From NCBI RefSeq assembly GCF_030538495.1, contig NZ_JAUNTW010000010.1, positions 25,832 to 89,831 on the forward strand: a stretch of DNA of 64,000 bases. Reading direction: 5' to 3'. The stretch's first letter is position 1. Each line of letters begins with the position of its first letter. Positions 57,830 to 64,000 of the stretch are shown here, in pieces. The notes beneath the pieces are model-generated. The model was not told the DNA's origin, made no database searches, and worked only from the letters and a program-made list of their open reading frames with translations. This DNA is from Paracoccus sp. (in: a-proteobacteria). GTDB lineage: Bacteria > Pseudomonadota > Alphaproteobacteria > Rhodobacterales > Rhodobacteraceae. The translations under genes and the position numbers were made by a program.

Positions 57830-59143
57830 ATGTCTATGTCTGCCGCGATGAATGCCAGTGTGTCCGGTCTTGTCGCAAATTCCTCACGTCTCAGCACGAT
57901 CTCCGACAACATCGCCAATTCGCAAACGCATGGCTATAAACGTGTCACGACCGAATTTAGTTCGATCTTTCTGAATCAGGGCCGTGCGGCGGGCTTGTAT
58001 GCGGCGGGGGGCGTCCGCTTCGAATCGGGCCGCGTCGTGGAAGAGGACGGCGCCCTGATTTCCACCACCCATCCGCTGGATGTTGCCGTGGCGGGACGCG
58101 GGATGTTGCCGGTCATGGGCCGACATTCGGACGAAGGCAGTGCCTTGCTGATGACGCGGACCGGATCGTTCCGCCCCGACGCCGAAGGGGTTCTGACCAC
58201 GGGCAGCGGGCTGACCCTGATGGGCTGGCCGCTGGACCGGGACGGCACTATGGCCCCGCCGGCGCGCGATTCAGTTGGGCAGCTTCAGAAAATCGTGCTG
58301 GGCAGCAATCAAAGCTATGGCGACCCGACCACCACCGTGCGTCTGGGGGTCAACCTGCCCGCAGATGAAACCCGCCCGACCGGCGGCGGTTCTTATGACC
58401 TGCCGTTGGAATATTTCGACAATTTGGGCGCCTCGCAGACGCTGAACACGACCTTTACCCCGGCGACGGATGATGACGGCGATATCATCGCGAATACCTG
58501 GGTCATGGAAATCCGCGACATGGCAAATGCTGCGCCGGGCGGCCAACTGGTCGGCAGCTATACCCTTGAATTTCATAATGACCCCAATCTGGGCGGCAGC
58601 CTGAAATCGGTAACGGCGGGCGATGATTCCGCGGAATATGACCCGGTTCTGGGCGCGGTCGGGGTTCAGGTCGAAGGCGGCGGCACGATTCAGGTTGGCA
58701 TTGGTATGCTGAACGGGCCGGGGGGGATGACCCAGCTGTCCGCCAGCTTTGCGCCCACCAATATTTCAAAAGACGGCTCACCGGCGGGGCAGCTGCTGGC
58801 GGTCGAAATCGACGGGCAGGGGATCCTGAGGGCGACCTATGACACCGGCCATATCAAGGCGCTGTATAAAATTCCGCTGGTTGACGTGCCGAACCCGAAC
58901 GCGCTGACGGGGCTGGATAATCAGGTGTATAAAGTGTCGTCCAGCTCGGGGGCGTTGTATCTGTGGGACGCGGGTGATGGGCCGACGGGTTCGGTGGTGG
59001 GCTATGCCCGCGAAGGTTCGACCGTGGACATCGCGCATGAACTGACCAGCCTGATCCAGACGCAGCGCGCCTATTCGTCGAATGCCAAGATCGTGCAGAC
59101 CGTCGATGAGATGCTGCAGGAAACCACCAATATCAAGCGTTGA
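57830..59143 (+). CDS. flgE: Flagellar hook protein FlgE
   Basis: 437 residues forming the hook filament. The N-terminal rod-type motif (SAAMNASVSGLVANSSRLST, ISDNIANSQTHGYKRV) and the C-terminal AREGSTVDIAHELTSLIQTQ and RAYSSNAKIVQTVDEMLQET are the paired coiled-coil ends of FlgE/F/G proteins; length and the QTLNTTFTPATDDD middle favour FlgE. Exported by the flagellar type III apparatus, with no Sec signal. Confidence 0.92.
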   Translation: MSMSAAMNASVSGLVANSSRLSTISDNIANSQTHGYKRVTTEFSSIFLNQGRAAGLYAAGGVRFESGRVVEEDGALISTTHPLDVAVAGRGMLPVMGRHSDEGSALLMTRTGSFRPDAEGVLTTGSGLTLMGWPLDRDGTMAPPARDSVGQLQKIVLGSNQSYGDPTTTVRLGVNLPADETRPTGGGSYDLPLEYFDNLGASQTLNTTFTPATDDDGDIIANTWVMEIRDMANAAPGGQLVGSYTLEFHNDPNLGGSLKSVTAGDDSAEYDPVLGAVGVQVEGGGTIQVGIGMLNGPGGMTQLSASFAPTNISKDGSPAGQLLAVEIDGQGILRATYDTGHIKALYKIPLVDVPNPNALTGLDNQVYKVSSSSGALYLWDAGDGPTGSVVGYAREGSTVDIAHELTSLIQTQRAYSSNAKIVQTVDEMLQETTNIKR

Positions 59144-59160
59144 TCTGACATAGGTGTAAC

Positions 59161-60606
59161 ATGAACATGATGCGCGCGCTGAACAGCGCAATGTCCGGCC
59201 TGACGGCGACGGCGCACGGGACCGAAACGGTTGCGGCGAATCTGGCCAATATCAAAACCCCCGGCTATGCCCGGCGTGAGGTTGTCCAATCCGCCCAGAC
59301 CATGGGCGGAAACGCGGGCGGCGTGCGCATCGACAGCGTGGACCGCGCCGTGAATGCGGCCTTGCTGGCGGAAATGCGGCTGGCGACCTCCGCCCGTTCG
59401 GCGGCGGCGGCCCACAGCCATTTTACCACCCGCGTCGAAGGCGTCATCGGAATGCCGGGCGAACCGCAGGCGCTGACCACCACGCTGACGACCTTTCGCG
59501 CGGCGATTGACCATGCGGCCAACCGGCCCGATGACGACCTGCGCCTGATGCGGCTGGCGGAAACGGCGGATCATCTGGCACGCGGGCTGAACGCGGCCAG
59601 TCGCGATATTCAACAGGAACGGCTGCAGGCCGATCACCGCATTGACAGCGATGTCCGCGATCTGAACAGCGGGTTGCAACGCGTGGCCTATCTGAACCGC
59701 CGTATCGCCGTGGTCGAAGCTGCGGGCAAGGATACGTCATCTCTGGCGGATGAACGCCAGTCCACCATCGACCGGCTGGCTCAGATCGTCCCCCTGCAAG
59801 AGGTGACGCGCCCCGGTGGTGCGGTCGCGCTGTTTACCCTGTCCGGCGGGGTGCTGCTGGATGGCACGCGTCCGGCGGAATTCGGGTTCACGCCCTCGGC
59901 CCAGATGGCGCCGGACAGTGTGGCCGGAGACGGAACCGTGTCGCATGTGACACTGAACGGGCAGCCTCTGACCGGCACGCGTCTGGCGATGTTCAGCGGC
60001 GGCACCTTGGCCGCAAATCTGGACATTCGCGACAATCGCGCCCCGGCGATTCAGCGCGATCTGGATATGCTGGCCTTGGATTTGTCGGTTCGGGTTGGGG
60101 TGCTGGCCGACCCCGATGACGACACGCAGCCGGGCCTGTTCACCGATGCGCAGGATGTTGTCCGCGCCGATCAGGTGGCCGGGCTGGCGGCGCGTCTGGC
60201 GCTGAACGCGGCGGTGTCGCAACCGGCTCAGGCGTGGCGGATGCGTGACGGCGTGGCCACAGCCGCGCCCGGGAATATTGGTGAATCCGGGCGTCTGCAC
60301 GCCCTTGCGCAGGCCCTGAATACGGTCCGCGCGCCCATGGACGGCAGCAGCTTTACCGGCGCGGCGGACCTTGCGGGGCGCTTTGCGCAGGTGGAATCGC
60401 GCGTCGCGTCGTCTCGGGTGGCCGATGACGCCGATCTGGCGGTGCGCAACAGCCGGATGGAGATTATCACCGCCCGTTTCCTGAAAGACGGCGTTGATAG
60501 CGACGCCGAAATGCAGCGCCTGCTGCAATATGAACAGGCCTATGCCGCCAATGCCCGTGTGATCCGGGCGGTTGATGAAATGCTGGACCAATTGCTGAGG
60601 ATCTGA
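59161..60606 (+). CDS. flgK: Flagellar hook-associated protein 1 FlgK
   Basis: 481 residues linking hook to filament. The N-terminus (MMRALNSAMSGLTATAHGTE, VAANLANIKTPGYARREVV) and the C-terminus (LLQYEQAYAANARVIRAVDE, MLDQLLRI) are the typical rod/hook pattern. The variable domain is D/A-rich. It starts 17 nt after flgE and ends 3 nt before flgL. Confidence 0.94.
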   Translation: MNMMRALNSAMSGLTATAHGTETVAANLANIKTPGYARREVVQSAQTMGGNAGGVRIDSVDRAVNAALLAEMRLATSARSAAAAHSHFTTRVEGVIGMPGEPQALTTTLTTFRAAIDHAANRPDDDLRLMRLAETADHLARGLNAASRDIQQERLQADHRIDSDVRDLNSGLQRVAYLNRRIAVVEAAGKDTSSLADERQSTIDRLAQIVPLQEVTRPGGAVALFTLSGGVLLDGTRPAEFGFTPSAQMAPDSVAGDGTVSHVTLNGQPLTGTRLAMFSGGTLAANLDIRDNRAPAIQRDLDMLALDLSVRVGVLADPDDDTQPGLFTDAQDVVRADQVAGLAARLALNAAVSQPAQAWRMRDGVATAAPGNIGESGRLHALAQALNTVRAPMDGSSFTGAADLAGRFAQVESRVASSRVADDADLAVRNSRMEIITARFLKDGVDSDAEMQRLLQYEQAYAANARVIRAVDEMLDQLLRI

Positions 60607-60609
60607 TCC

Positions 60610-61623
60610 ATGAACCTGTCATCCATTGGCGACCAGTCGCGCCAGTTTTCGCTGCACACCCAGACGCAGCGCACCAAAGATCAAATCGCCGATCTGACCA
60701 AACAGGTCACGACGGGCGAATACGCCGATATGGCGGCGCAGCTGCGCGGCAATACCCGCGGGCTGAGCGATATCGAATCCAAAATCACCCTGCTGGGTCA
60801 GGCGCAATCCAACCTGACCGAGGCGGCGCAGCTGACCGATCTGATGCAGCATCAGCTGAACGGCGTTCATCAGATGACGTCCGATTTGTCGCTGCGCCTG
60901 ATCGGCTTTCAGGGCGCAAGCAGCATTGAAAATACTGATGCGGTGCAAAGTCTGGCCTTGACCTCGCTGGACATTGCGGTGGCGCGGCTGAATGCAACGG
61001 TGGGCGGGCGTTATGCCTTTTCCGCGACGCGGCCGGATCAGCCGTCACTGATTTCCGCGCCGCAATTGCTGGACGCGGCGCGTCAGGCGGCCGAAGGCGC
61101 GGACACCGCCGCCGATATCATCGCCGCCGTGACGGCGTGGTTCGACGCGCCCGTCGATCAGCCCGGTTATCTGCGCGATGCCTATGGCGGGTCGGTTGAT
61201 GCGCCGGTGCATTTGCCCTTGGGGCAGGGGGCCACTACGGCGATCACGCTGTCGGCGGCATCCGACCCGATTCGTGACGCGCTTAAGGCGTTGACCTTGG
61301 CGGCTCTGGCGCAGGATTACGCGGCGGATCAACCCGACATTCAGCACCAGATGTTGGGGGCTGCGGGCGCGATGATGCTGGCCGGCGATCCCGAACTGGT
61401 GGGCGCGCAAGGCCGTCTGGGTGCCGTGCAACAACAGATCGAGGCCGCGCAGGTCGAAGCGCGTTCCTATATGTCCACGCTGGAACTGGCCCGCAACGAC
61501 ATTCGCGGCGCTGATGTGTACCGAAGCTCGACCGAGCTGACCGAAGTGCAAAGCCAGCTTGAGGCGATCTATGCCCTCACCGCGCGTCTGTCGCGCCTGA
61601 AATTGGTGGATTTCCTGCGATGA
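60610..61623 (+). CDS. flgL: Flagellar hook-associated protein 3 FlgL
   Basis: 337 residues with flagellin-like ends: MNLSSIGDQSRQFSLHTQTQ, DQIADLTKQVTTGEYADMAA, and a long helical C-terminus with ARNDIRGADVYRSSTELTEV and SQLEAIYALTARLSRLKLVD. It joins FlgK to the filament. Its stop codon overlaps the start of flgI by 4 nt, implying coupling. Confidence 0.92.
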   Translation: MNLSSIGDQSRQFSLHTQTQRTKDQIADLTKQVTTGEYADMAAQLRGNTRGLSDIESKITLLGQAQSNLTEAAQLTDLMQHQLNGVHQMTSDLSLRLIGFQGASSIENTDAVQSLALTSLDIAVARLNATVGGRYAFSATRPDQPSLISAPQLLDAARQAAEGADTAADIIAAVTAWFDAPVDQPGYLRDAYGGSVDAPVHLPLGQGATTAITLSAASDPIRDALKALTLAALAQDYAADQPDIQHQMLGAAGAMMLAGDPELVGAQGRLGAVQQQIEAAQVEARSYMSTLELARNDIRGADVYRSSTELTEVQSQLEAIYALTARLSRLKLVDFLR

Positions 61624-62720
61624 ACTATCTGATGGCGGTGATGATGTGGGTGATGCTGGCGGTGTCGGCGGCGGCGAACCCGGTGCGGATTAAGGATCTG
61701 GCTGATTTCGACGGCGTGCGCGGCAATGATTTGGTGGGCTATGGTCTGGTTGTGGGGCTGGACGGCACCGGTGACGGGATGCGCAACGCCCCCTTTACCG
61801 AAGAGATGCTGGCCGGGTTGCTGGAACGGTTGGGCGTGAATGTCAGCGATGACGCGCTGCGGTCGAAAAACGTCGCGGCGGTGATTGTGACGGCGGCGCT
61901 GCCGCCCTTTGCGCGATCGGGCAGCCGCATTGATGTGAATGTGTCCACGATTGGCGATGCCAAAAGCTTGCTGGGCGGCACGCTGGTTATGACCCCGCTG
62001 AAGGCGGCGGATGGCAATATCTATGCCGTGGCGCAGGGCTCGATCATCGCGGGCGGGGTGTCGGTGTCGGGCGACGCCGCCCGCGTGGTCGAAGGCGTGC
62101 CGACCGCCGGGCGCATCCCCGTGGGCGCGCGGGTGGAACGCGAGGTCGAATTTGACTTTGCCGCCATTCAGGACCTGCGCATCGCGCTGCGAACCGCCGA
62201 TTTCACCACGGCCGCGCGGGTCGAGGATGCGATTAACCGCGAATTTGGCCGTCAACTGGCCGTCGCTGTGGACAGTGGCACGGTGCAGGTGAATTTTCGC
62301 GGTCTCGGTTCGGTCAATCCGGCGCGTGTGGTCGGGCGGATCGAAAACCTGACCGTCCAGCCCGAAGATCGCGCCAAAGTCGTGATCGACCATAAGGCCG
62401 GAACGATTGTGATGGGCGAACGCGTTCAGATTTCGCGCGTGGCTGTGTCGCAAGGCAGCCTGACCCTGCGCGTCAGTGAAGCCCCCGTCGTGTCGCAGCC
62501 CAACCCGTTTTCGGCGGGCGAAACCATCACGGTTCCGCGCAGCAACGCCGAAATCCGTCAGGAACCCGGCATTGGCTTTGCCGAGGTCGGCGGTCAGGCC
62601 AATCTGACCGATCTGGTCGAGGGGTTGAACGCGCTTGGCGTGCGTCCGCGCGAAATGATCGACATTTTGAAGTCGATCCATTCCGCCGGGGCGCTGCACG
62701 CGGAATTGGTGATCGAATAG
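61620..62720 (+). CDS. flgI: Flagellar P-ring protein FlgI
   Basis: 366 residues building the ring in the peptidoglycan layer. A Sec signal peptide (MNYLMAVMMWVMLAVSAAA) is followed by NPVRIKDLADFDGVRGNDLV, GYGLVVGLDGTGDGMRN, and ends with LVEGLNALGVRPREMIDILK and SIHSAGALHAELVIE, all canonical. It overlaps flgL by 4 nt and converges on pdeM. Confidence 0.97.
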   Translation: MNYLMAVMMWVMLAVSAAANPVRIKDLADFDGVRGNDLVGYGLVVGLDGTGDGMRNAPFTEEMLAGLLERLGVNVSDDALRSKNVAAVIVTAALPPFARSGSRIDVNVSTIGDAKSLLGGTLVMTPLKAADGNIYAVAQGSIIAGGVSVSGDAARVVEGVPTAGRIPVGARVEREVEFDFAAIQDLRIALRTADFTTAARVEDAINREFGRQLAVAVDSGTVQVNFRGLGSVNPARVVGRIENLTVQPEDRAKVVIDHKAGTIVMGERVQISRVAVSQGSLTLRVSEAPVVSQPNPFSAGETITVPRSNAEIRQEPGIGFAEVGGQANLTDLVEGLNALGVRPREMIDILKSIHSAGALHAELVIE

Positions 62721-62740
62721 GGCCGTTTCGCACCCGCCGT

Positions 62741-63412
62741 TCAGCGCCACCGGCGCGGGCGGCGGGGTTGCGGGACGGGAACCGCGATGACCGACGAACC
62801 GCAGGTCAGGGCGACCCCCTGCGACACCAATTCGCGCAGCGGGCCGTCATTGACCGCCAGCCCCCCGGTATAGACCCCAAAGGACGGCAAAATCAGGTGA
62901 TCTTGACCGACCAGAAAGCACCGTCGCCTCTGACCCGCCAGTTGGATGCAGGGGTGATAATGGCCCGACACATCCGGCCCGTCCCCGGCCTGATGGCGAA
63001 AGGTCAGGGCGCGGCGCCATTCAGGGGCGCACTGACCCGGCAGATTGGTTGGGTTGGGGTCGTGATTGCCCGTCACCCACAACCACGACCTGCCACGCGC
63101 CATCTGCTCCAGCCGGTTGCGGATGTCGTCGGTCAGGTCATCGGTGGCCCGGTCATCGTCGAAGCTGTCGCCCAGACTGACCACGGTTTCGGGGCGCAAC
63201 GCGTCAATCTCTGCGCCCAAACGATCGAGGGTTGCGTGATTTTCATAAGGCGGCAACAAGGCACTCCCGCCGCGCGCCCAGCGGTCGGATTTGCCCAGAT
63301 GCAGGTCGGACACAATCAGCGCCCGTTCCTTGGGCCACCACAATGCACCCGATGGGCGGGCGATAAAGTCCTGCTCGGAAAAGGAAAATGCGTAATCGGT
63401 CGGTTGGGTCAT
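62741..63412 (-). CDS. pdeM: Ligase-associated DNA damage response endonuclease PdeM-like
   Basis: A calcineurin-type metallophosphoesterase of 223 residues from 63412. The metal motifs are complete: IVSDLHLGKS (about 35-44), SLGDSFDDDR, VTGNHDPNP and SGHYHP. Relatives named PdeM are usually found with a DEAD/DEAH-box helicase (Lhr-type) and an ATP-dependent DNA ligase, acting in DNA repair. The sequence upstream of its start is non-coding to the window edge, so that partner is not seen. It converges on flgI with 20 nt between stop codons. Confidence 0.88.
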   Translation of the reverse strand: MTQPTDYAFSFSEQDFIARPSGALWWPKERALIVSDLHLGKSDRWARGGSALLPPYENHATLDRLGAEIDALRPETVVSLGDSFDDDRATDDLTDDIRNRLEQMARGRSWLWVTGNHDPNPTNLPGQCAPEWRRALTFRHQAGDGPDVSGHYHPCIQLAGQRRRCFLVGQDHLILPSFGVYTGGLAVNDGPLRELVSQGVALTCGSSVIAVPVPQPRRPRRWR

Positions 63413-63603
63413 GGCGATCCGTCCACGAACAGACGGCAGAGGGGGGGGGCGGGGCTGCGGTCGGGTGATGCGCCCCATTGGCACAGTCGCCCCACTTGGC
63501 GCAAGGTGGGGCGTGGCTGCTGCGATCCGCGCCGGTATCCTTGCCGTCACGCCGCATCATCCATCGCGCGTCAGCCGGCTGCGCCCAGCGGCCGCGATAC
63601 ACC
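63413..63603. other. Non-coding lead-in upstream of pdeM
   Basis: No credible gene. It holds a run of nine G (about 63440-63448) and a hairpin CGCCCCAC/GTGGGGCG (63488-63495 with 63506-63513). It probably includes the pdeM promoter. The tandem repeats begin just after it, and a faint, shorter resemblance to the repeat unit is visible near 63570-63603. Confidence 0.6.
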
Positions 63604-64000
63604 TTCCGCATGCCGTGCGCTGCGTTGGCTGTGGGTTGGTGGGTGGACGGCGTTTGGCGGATTACTACGGGGCGGATAGAGCCATGTCTGCGGTGTGATT
63701 ATGCTGAATCCGTGGCCAGATGTTATGGCGTTATGCGTGTTCCGCATGCGCCACCCTGAACCGGCTGTCGGTTGTGTGGGTGGGCGGTATCTGGCGGATT
63801 GCGGGGGCGTATTGGGCTATGCTTGCGGCACCGTAGTGCGATAACCGCGGTCCGGTGTCTATCGTTGTGCGCGCTCCGCACTCGCACCCTGATTCGGCTG
63901 TGGGTTGTTGAGTGAAGGGCATTGGGGAATTACGGGGCCTGAAGGGCCATGTCTGCGGTGTGATTATGCTGAATCCGTGGCCAGATGTTATGGCGTTATG
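63604..64000. repeat. Degenerate tandem repeats of about 135 bp (at least three units)
   Basis: Units begin with a (T/C)TCCGCA block at 63604, 63740 and 63874, spaced 136 and 134 bp; the third runs off the window. Each has a GGCTGTGGGTTG-like block, a TGGCGGATT-like block and a final GCCATG..TGCGG block. The final 55 bp of units one and three (63681-63735 and 63946-64000) are identical, while unit two is strongly diverged there. Stop codons in all frames argue against coding. Confidence 0.85.

Follow-up and report, generated by a model that had tools for sequence, protein, structure and literature searches.

A tandem array of diverged noncoding repeats at the junction of the repair genes lhr and pdeM in a Paracoccus genome

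Direct tandem repeats of noncoding DNA are familiar in bacteria as minisatellites or VNTR loci, the copy number of which presumably shifts by slippage or unequal recombination. A second described system is the MIRU, which the title of their founding paper, as it stands in the reference list of PMC3914561, presents as tandem repeats between the genes of an operon, and which the consulted part of that article gives as 46-101 bp long and scattered over 41 loci. The array described here, at the junction of lhr and pdeM in a Paracoccus genome, resembles VNTR loci in its layout of direct noncoding tandem repeats and, presumably, in the way its copy number shifts, but its units are old and diverged (46-65% identical, with one pair, U1-U3, at 81%) and it is known from one genome. 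It resembles MIRU, as far as that title describes them, in that tandem repeats sit between genes of an operon; it differs in that its units measure about 104-136 bp, against the 46-101 bp given for MIRU in the consulted part of the same article, and in that the family lies at one locus, only the ends of two contigs (C1 and C3) matching clearly. Arrays behind aroB, topA and dnaJ in the same genome share its layout, noncoding and in tandem behind a stop codon, but the lhr/pdeM units match neither adjoining gene end. Neither this array nor gene-tail arrays in Paracoccus turned up in titles and the beginnings of abstracts, a scope that leaves their absence from print unproven.

The sequence analysed is a stretch of 64,000 nucleotides of contig C1 (the window), at the right-hand end of which the array begins. 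The features that concern us are:

62741..63412, minus strand: pdeM, ligase-associated DNA damage response endonuclease (TIGR04123, 184.8 bits, cut-off 150)
63413..63599, no strand: spacer between pdeM and the array, 187 bp
63600..63735, plus strand: tandem unit U1, 136 bp
63681..63735, plus strand: first copy of a 55-base exact match, in U1
63736..63869, plus strand: tandem unit U2, 134 bp
63870..64000, plus strand: tandem unit U3, 131 bp, truncated where the contig ends
63946..64000, plus strand: second copy of the 55-base exact match, in U3, stopping at the contig end

The pairwise identity among the three units is 63-81%. Local alignment scores of 54 (U1-U2), 49 (U2-U3) and 141 (U1-U3) lie above the maxima reached in 500 dinucleotide shuffles (34, 28 and 28, respectively), and the score of 39 that U1-U3 retain once the 55-bp block is taken out also exceeds its shuffle maximum of 28. 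These scores bear out the three tandem units of the original prediction, which had been made from the letters of the window. Tandem Repeats Finder gave no entry at the array at its default threshold; the divergence between units is presumably too great. U1-U3 and the units on C3 described below are direct head-to-tail copies, as in a minisatellite or noncoding tandem repeat. A special resemblance of units 2 and 3 in their first half had also been claimed; it holds over the first 30 alignment columns only (21/29 matching for U2-U3 against 18/30 and 18/29 for the other pairs), and over the whole first part U1 and U2 are the closest pair (57/79), with U1-U3 at 51/76 and U2-U3 at 48/74.

Units 1 and 3 had been described as sharing an identical 55-bp second half. 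The exact match is there (63681-63735 equals 63946-64000) and its left edge corresponds to a real sequence difference, but its right edge is not biological because the contig (89,831 bp) has its final base at position 64000. The divergence of unit 2 from the block, likewise claimed, is seen in 32/54 matching positions. We compared each contig end with all fetched contig-end stretches and with the window; of the 54 ends, 50 were readable, the four left out being those of C7 and C8, which read N. Exactly 55 bases were common with another place at 17 of the 50, and longer sharing occurred at none. Exact sharing of 55 bases at contig ends is what a de Bruijn assembler leaves behind when its word length is 55, and the length of the block is probably that word length. 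With the visible length set in this way, the identity of U1 and U3 extends over at least 55 bp, and the trap for the reader is that, where an exact repeat stops with its contig and equals the word size in length, that length means only "at least that long". The simplest account of the block is perhaps a 265-bp tandem duplication starting at 63681, of which only 55 bases of the second copy would be visible; the identity sets in abruptly within a unit, which does indicate a recent duplication or exchange. Homogenisation between alternate units, which had been proposed from the patchwork of similarities, is not supported as a pattern, for there is a single identical pair, and the assembler word length fixes how much of its identity is visible. 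The GCCAT...ATGGC inverted pair noted at the ends of the block is absent, by eye in the alignments, from unit 2 and from the C3 units.

Units beyond the window had also been expected. A sequence-only model built from U1-U3 (R1) was run against the whole of this genome and gave, outside U1-U3, one clear match (E 2.1e-8), which occupies C3:257111-257239, minus strand, and leaves 267 bp to the end of that contig (257,506 bp). A search of 238 kb gave two weaker, consecutive units on C3 (E 0.0043 and 0.0083). In this second search a match on C19 outscored both weak units (E 0.00081); it sits inside a transport-permease gene and was rejected as a member of the array. We accepted the weak C3 units on two grounds: they continue the series in position and direction, and the tail of C3 is self-similar at an offset of 132. 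The first C3 unit begins 28 bp past the lhr stop, and the C3 units, about 104-135 bp long, share one orientation; read in the orientation of the window, units are antisense to the operon on both C1 and C3. The six units are 46-65% identical in pairs, except for U1-U3, and have diverged evenly along their length. In all, the array probably holds at least six units, interrupted by a gap in the assembly, and the expectation of further units was correct, one being clear and two likely.

The genes on either side fit this arrangement. C3 carries, in order, a ligase-associated exonuclease (TIGR04122), an ATP-dependent ligase (TIGR04120) and an Lhr-type helicase (TIGR04121), and C1 carries PdeM (TIGR04123) on the other side of the gap, all above cut-off, so that both contig ends fit one operon gap. 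We infer that C1 adjoins C3 in the order lhr - array - pdeM, with a distance between the two genes of at least 424 + 588 = 1,012 bp plus the unassembled piece. The pdeM reading frame is open, with no stops. PdeM is present in 105/125 genomes of the genus, this one included, and the junction was sampled at 69 loci in 68 of 104 relatives, chiefly those in which PdeM matched better (the search supplied 29 loci and fetched stretches 40, one relative, G039, being in both). With gaps estimated from tblastn starts, and hence approximate, lhr and pdeM overlap in 65/68 Paracoccus relatives (-5 to -232 nt), and the remaining three have gaps of +10, +129 and +193. Among 80 named, mostly more distant loci, 10 had no lhr call and 70 were measurable, the gap being below 100 bp in 66/70; the four wider gaps are 210, 261, 432 and 3,130 bp, and for the last of these the top Lhr-like hit possibly belongs to a different gene. 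The overlap in relatives bears out the claim that the array lies upstream of a DNA-repair nuclease gene where coding sequence would be expected.

Two observations on the surroundings may be recorded here. In one relative (G084, L028:1290-1495) lhr and pdeM stand about 193 bp apart; the gap holds none of the units and shows, by eye, a GTGCCCGTCCG...CGGACGGGCAC hairpin. In the window, positions 57830-62720 hold flagellar genes, with FlgI recognised by family match and flgE-, flgK- and flgL-like neighbours by eye, in a Paracoccus genome of 2.67 Mb.

Only one of the genomes searched carries the units. None was found by DNA search in 100 other genomes of the genus, or by R1 at E 0.001 in 124 others of the genus, where the stricter filters lose weak matches; plasmids and phages gave none at E 0.01, and a 35-base pattern had 0 matches in viral contigs. 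The 393 other genomes of the family gave only two matches, both rejected: one of 23 nt lies inside a permease gene, and one of 32 nt aligns, by its query coordinates, with the spacer instead of the units.

We think it likely that the feature is the edge of a noncoding, minisatellite-like array of probably at least six direct repeats of about 104-136 bp between lhr and pdeM, largely neutral and specific to this lineage, which broke the lhr/pdeM overlap. Repeated tandem duplication at the junction, through replication slippage or unequal recombination in this lineage, would have produced a growing array that pushed the once-overlapping genes apart. The units would afterwards have decayed through point mutation and small indels, and at least one duplication, perhaps that of 265 bp from 63681, would be recent.

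We considered whether the array could instead serve, in several copies, as a promoter or as a binding region for a regulator, so that pdeM is transcribed on its own after loss of the overlap. A sigma-70-like pair, ATAACA-17-CATAAT, is present in both U1 and U3 and points to pdeM (two found against 0.2 in shuffles); a weaker version, ATAACA-17-CAGAAT, can be seen by eye at the same place in the best C3 unit, below the scan threshold; and an overlap that possibly couples translation has been lost, yet pdeM keeps an open frame and still exceeds the cut-off of its family. However, the two sigma-70-like matches are the two copies of one duplicated sequence, the 55-base block, and the promoter scan of the C3 tail found 0 pairs, against 0.1 in shuffles. 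No conserved core emerged from the six units, a sample that gives the test little power: no 20-column stretch was conserved beyond chance, 1250/2000 column shuffles reaching the observed maximum. The protein-binding element of the original prediction finds no backing in this same result. A 20-bp consensus, allowing up to 3 mismatches, occurs four times in the genome, all within the array, and so is not a site shared by a regulator. We regard a promoter or regulator-binding role as unlikely.

Decay of a coding repeat, or of a mobile element inserted between lhr and pdeM, would agree with the gain of at least 1 kb where most relatives examined have overlapping genes. Against it, three does not divide all of the unit spacings (136, 134 and 132), and four translated stretches had 0 Pfam matches, which upholds, in the frames tried, the description of the array as lacking coding capacity. 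The searches outside this genome, with no match in plasmids, phages or, under the stricter filters, the 124 other genomes of the genus and two short ones in the family (permease gene and spacer), also tell against an insertion. The marks of an insertion sequence or miniature transposon are missing, with 0 inverted pairs in 63300-64000 and no dispersed copies of the unit found in the sequenced parts of this genome. Either origin, from a coding repeat or from a mobile element, seems to us quite improbable.

Because the units are intergenic, repeated and partly diverged, they might also be read as tandem small-RNA genes or structured RNA elements, and on the plus strand, the only one given to it, RNAalifold predicted 20 pairs, 6 of them with at least one change on both sides. 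Yet folding z-scores spanned -1.24 to +1.76 in 12 folds (six units, both strands), the RNAalifold consensus reached only -4.88 kcal/mol, its covariation term of +1.2 being unfavourable, and there were 0 terminator-like sites in the array. Rfam returned nothing above the gathering score over 62700-64000, its three matches there (E 1.3-8.5) being far below that score and outside the array. Neither a conserved structure, on the one strand folded jointly, nor a known family, in the part of the window searched, was thus found, and we hold this reading, like the RNA element first suggested, to be very unlikely. An assembly error at the contig end, as the source of the third unit or of the tandem layout, is equally hard to credit. 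The contig does stop exactly at what is probably the word length, but U2 and the C3 units, on two contigs, are tandem copies that diverged independently, and a de Bruijn assembler requires reads for every step, here up to 64000.

The analysis thus removes a tempting regulatory reading of the array, and regulatory and RNA readings alike lack support. What stands of the earlier interpretation is the noncoding array, its further units and its position where coding sequence is expected; alternate homogenisation and an RNA or protein-binding element are not supported. The array is real but most likely non-functional, minisatellite-like, at the junction of two usually overlapping repair genes, and it looks like an old stuttering duplication, not a working element.

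A sample of about 631 kb of this genome held other noncoding tandem arrays:

L095:2573-3000, end of C12: array behind aroB, degenerate, units of about 110-140 bp, running into the contig end
L243:17995-19001 (C15:37995-39001): array behind the topoisomerase I gene (topA), about five 205-bp units, with an N run inside
L078:1059-1928 (C24:1059-1928): array behind dnaJ, decayed copies of the 3' part of dnaJ, 231-288 bp apart
L233:6358-7656 (C3:126358-127656): array between two genes, in a 1.3-kb noncoding gap, with a 319-bp unit

AroB and DnaJ were recognised by family matches above cut-off. For the topoisomerase, only the C-terminal part is matched and the score falls short of the whole-protein cut-off, probably since the gene is truncated in this stretch. 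Compared with the last 300 bp of their own gene, the arrays scored 45 (aroB), 38 (topA) and 109 (dnaJ, a 95-column match), where the maxima of 300 simple shuffles were 31, 30 and 33 and a second aroB run reached 35. The L233 array, with a direct repeat that is 79% identical over 187 nt, did not match the ends of its flanking genes. The lhr/pdeM unit scored 17-22 against the lhr and pdeM ends, below the maxima of 29-34 of 300 shuffles, and decayed duplication of a gene end thus finds no support as the source of these units. Loss of mismatch repair was rejected as a cause of the duplications, mutS and mutL both being present above cut-off.

The same sample held other kinds of self-similarity. 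C5:121988-122991 (L239:1988-2991) is a CRISPR array with 61-nt spacing, in which three consecutive spacers occur twice by eye, a duplicated spacer block. At L092:2670-2843 (end of C5) and L243:1184-1339, intergenic GGCCCAAATATCCCGG-type stretches stand in tandem pairs, and these stretches look like a dispersed intergenic repeat family. Like the CRISPR array, three further cases were set aside as ordinary: a phage-like region (L237, by eye), the repeats of an RTX-like protein (L067, by eye) and a partly doubled tRNA-Asp (L084), for which one gene was found and the second copy, seen by eye, is cut by the contig end. L063, at the start of C9, had a self-similarity score of 63.

As a control, 400 kb of four complete relatives gave 0/88 self-similar intergenic stretches of at least 150 bp. 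A 464-kb set of this genome gave 6/68, among them the CRISPR array, the phage-like region, a dispersed-element pair and the window array, so that two remain (topA and L233); outside the window and the contig ends, this amounts to two array-like gaps in 400 kb here versus 0 in 400 kb of the relatives. The contig-end set gave 6/50, a biased sample because repeats break assemblies. A scan of gene ends found five direct matches scoring at least 36 among 463 comparisons in this genome (topA 38, dnaJ 109, aroB 45 and two 5'-end matches, L233 and L104) and one, scoring 37, among 297 comparisons in the relatives, a value that the topA score of 38 hardly exceeds; with inverted comparisons as a control, no match came up in any of the six sets. 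An excess of arrays in this genome over its relatives is suggested by these counts, but weakly. We put forward only as a speculation, itself rather doubtful, that tandem re-copying of gene 3' ends with their spacer is heightened genome-wide in this lineage, leaving decaying tails behind aroB, topA and dnaJ and splitting the lhr/pdeM overlap.

If such re-copying of gene tails were true, this genome would hold a live record of the birth of intergenic DNA in bacteria. Should the gene-tail arrays prove lineage-specific, they would show the origin of new noncoding DNA in compact bacterial genomes, and they would show as well that a common gene overlap can be lost without loss of the gene.
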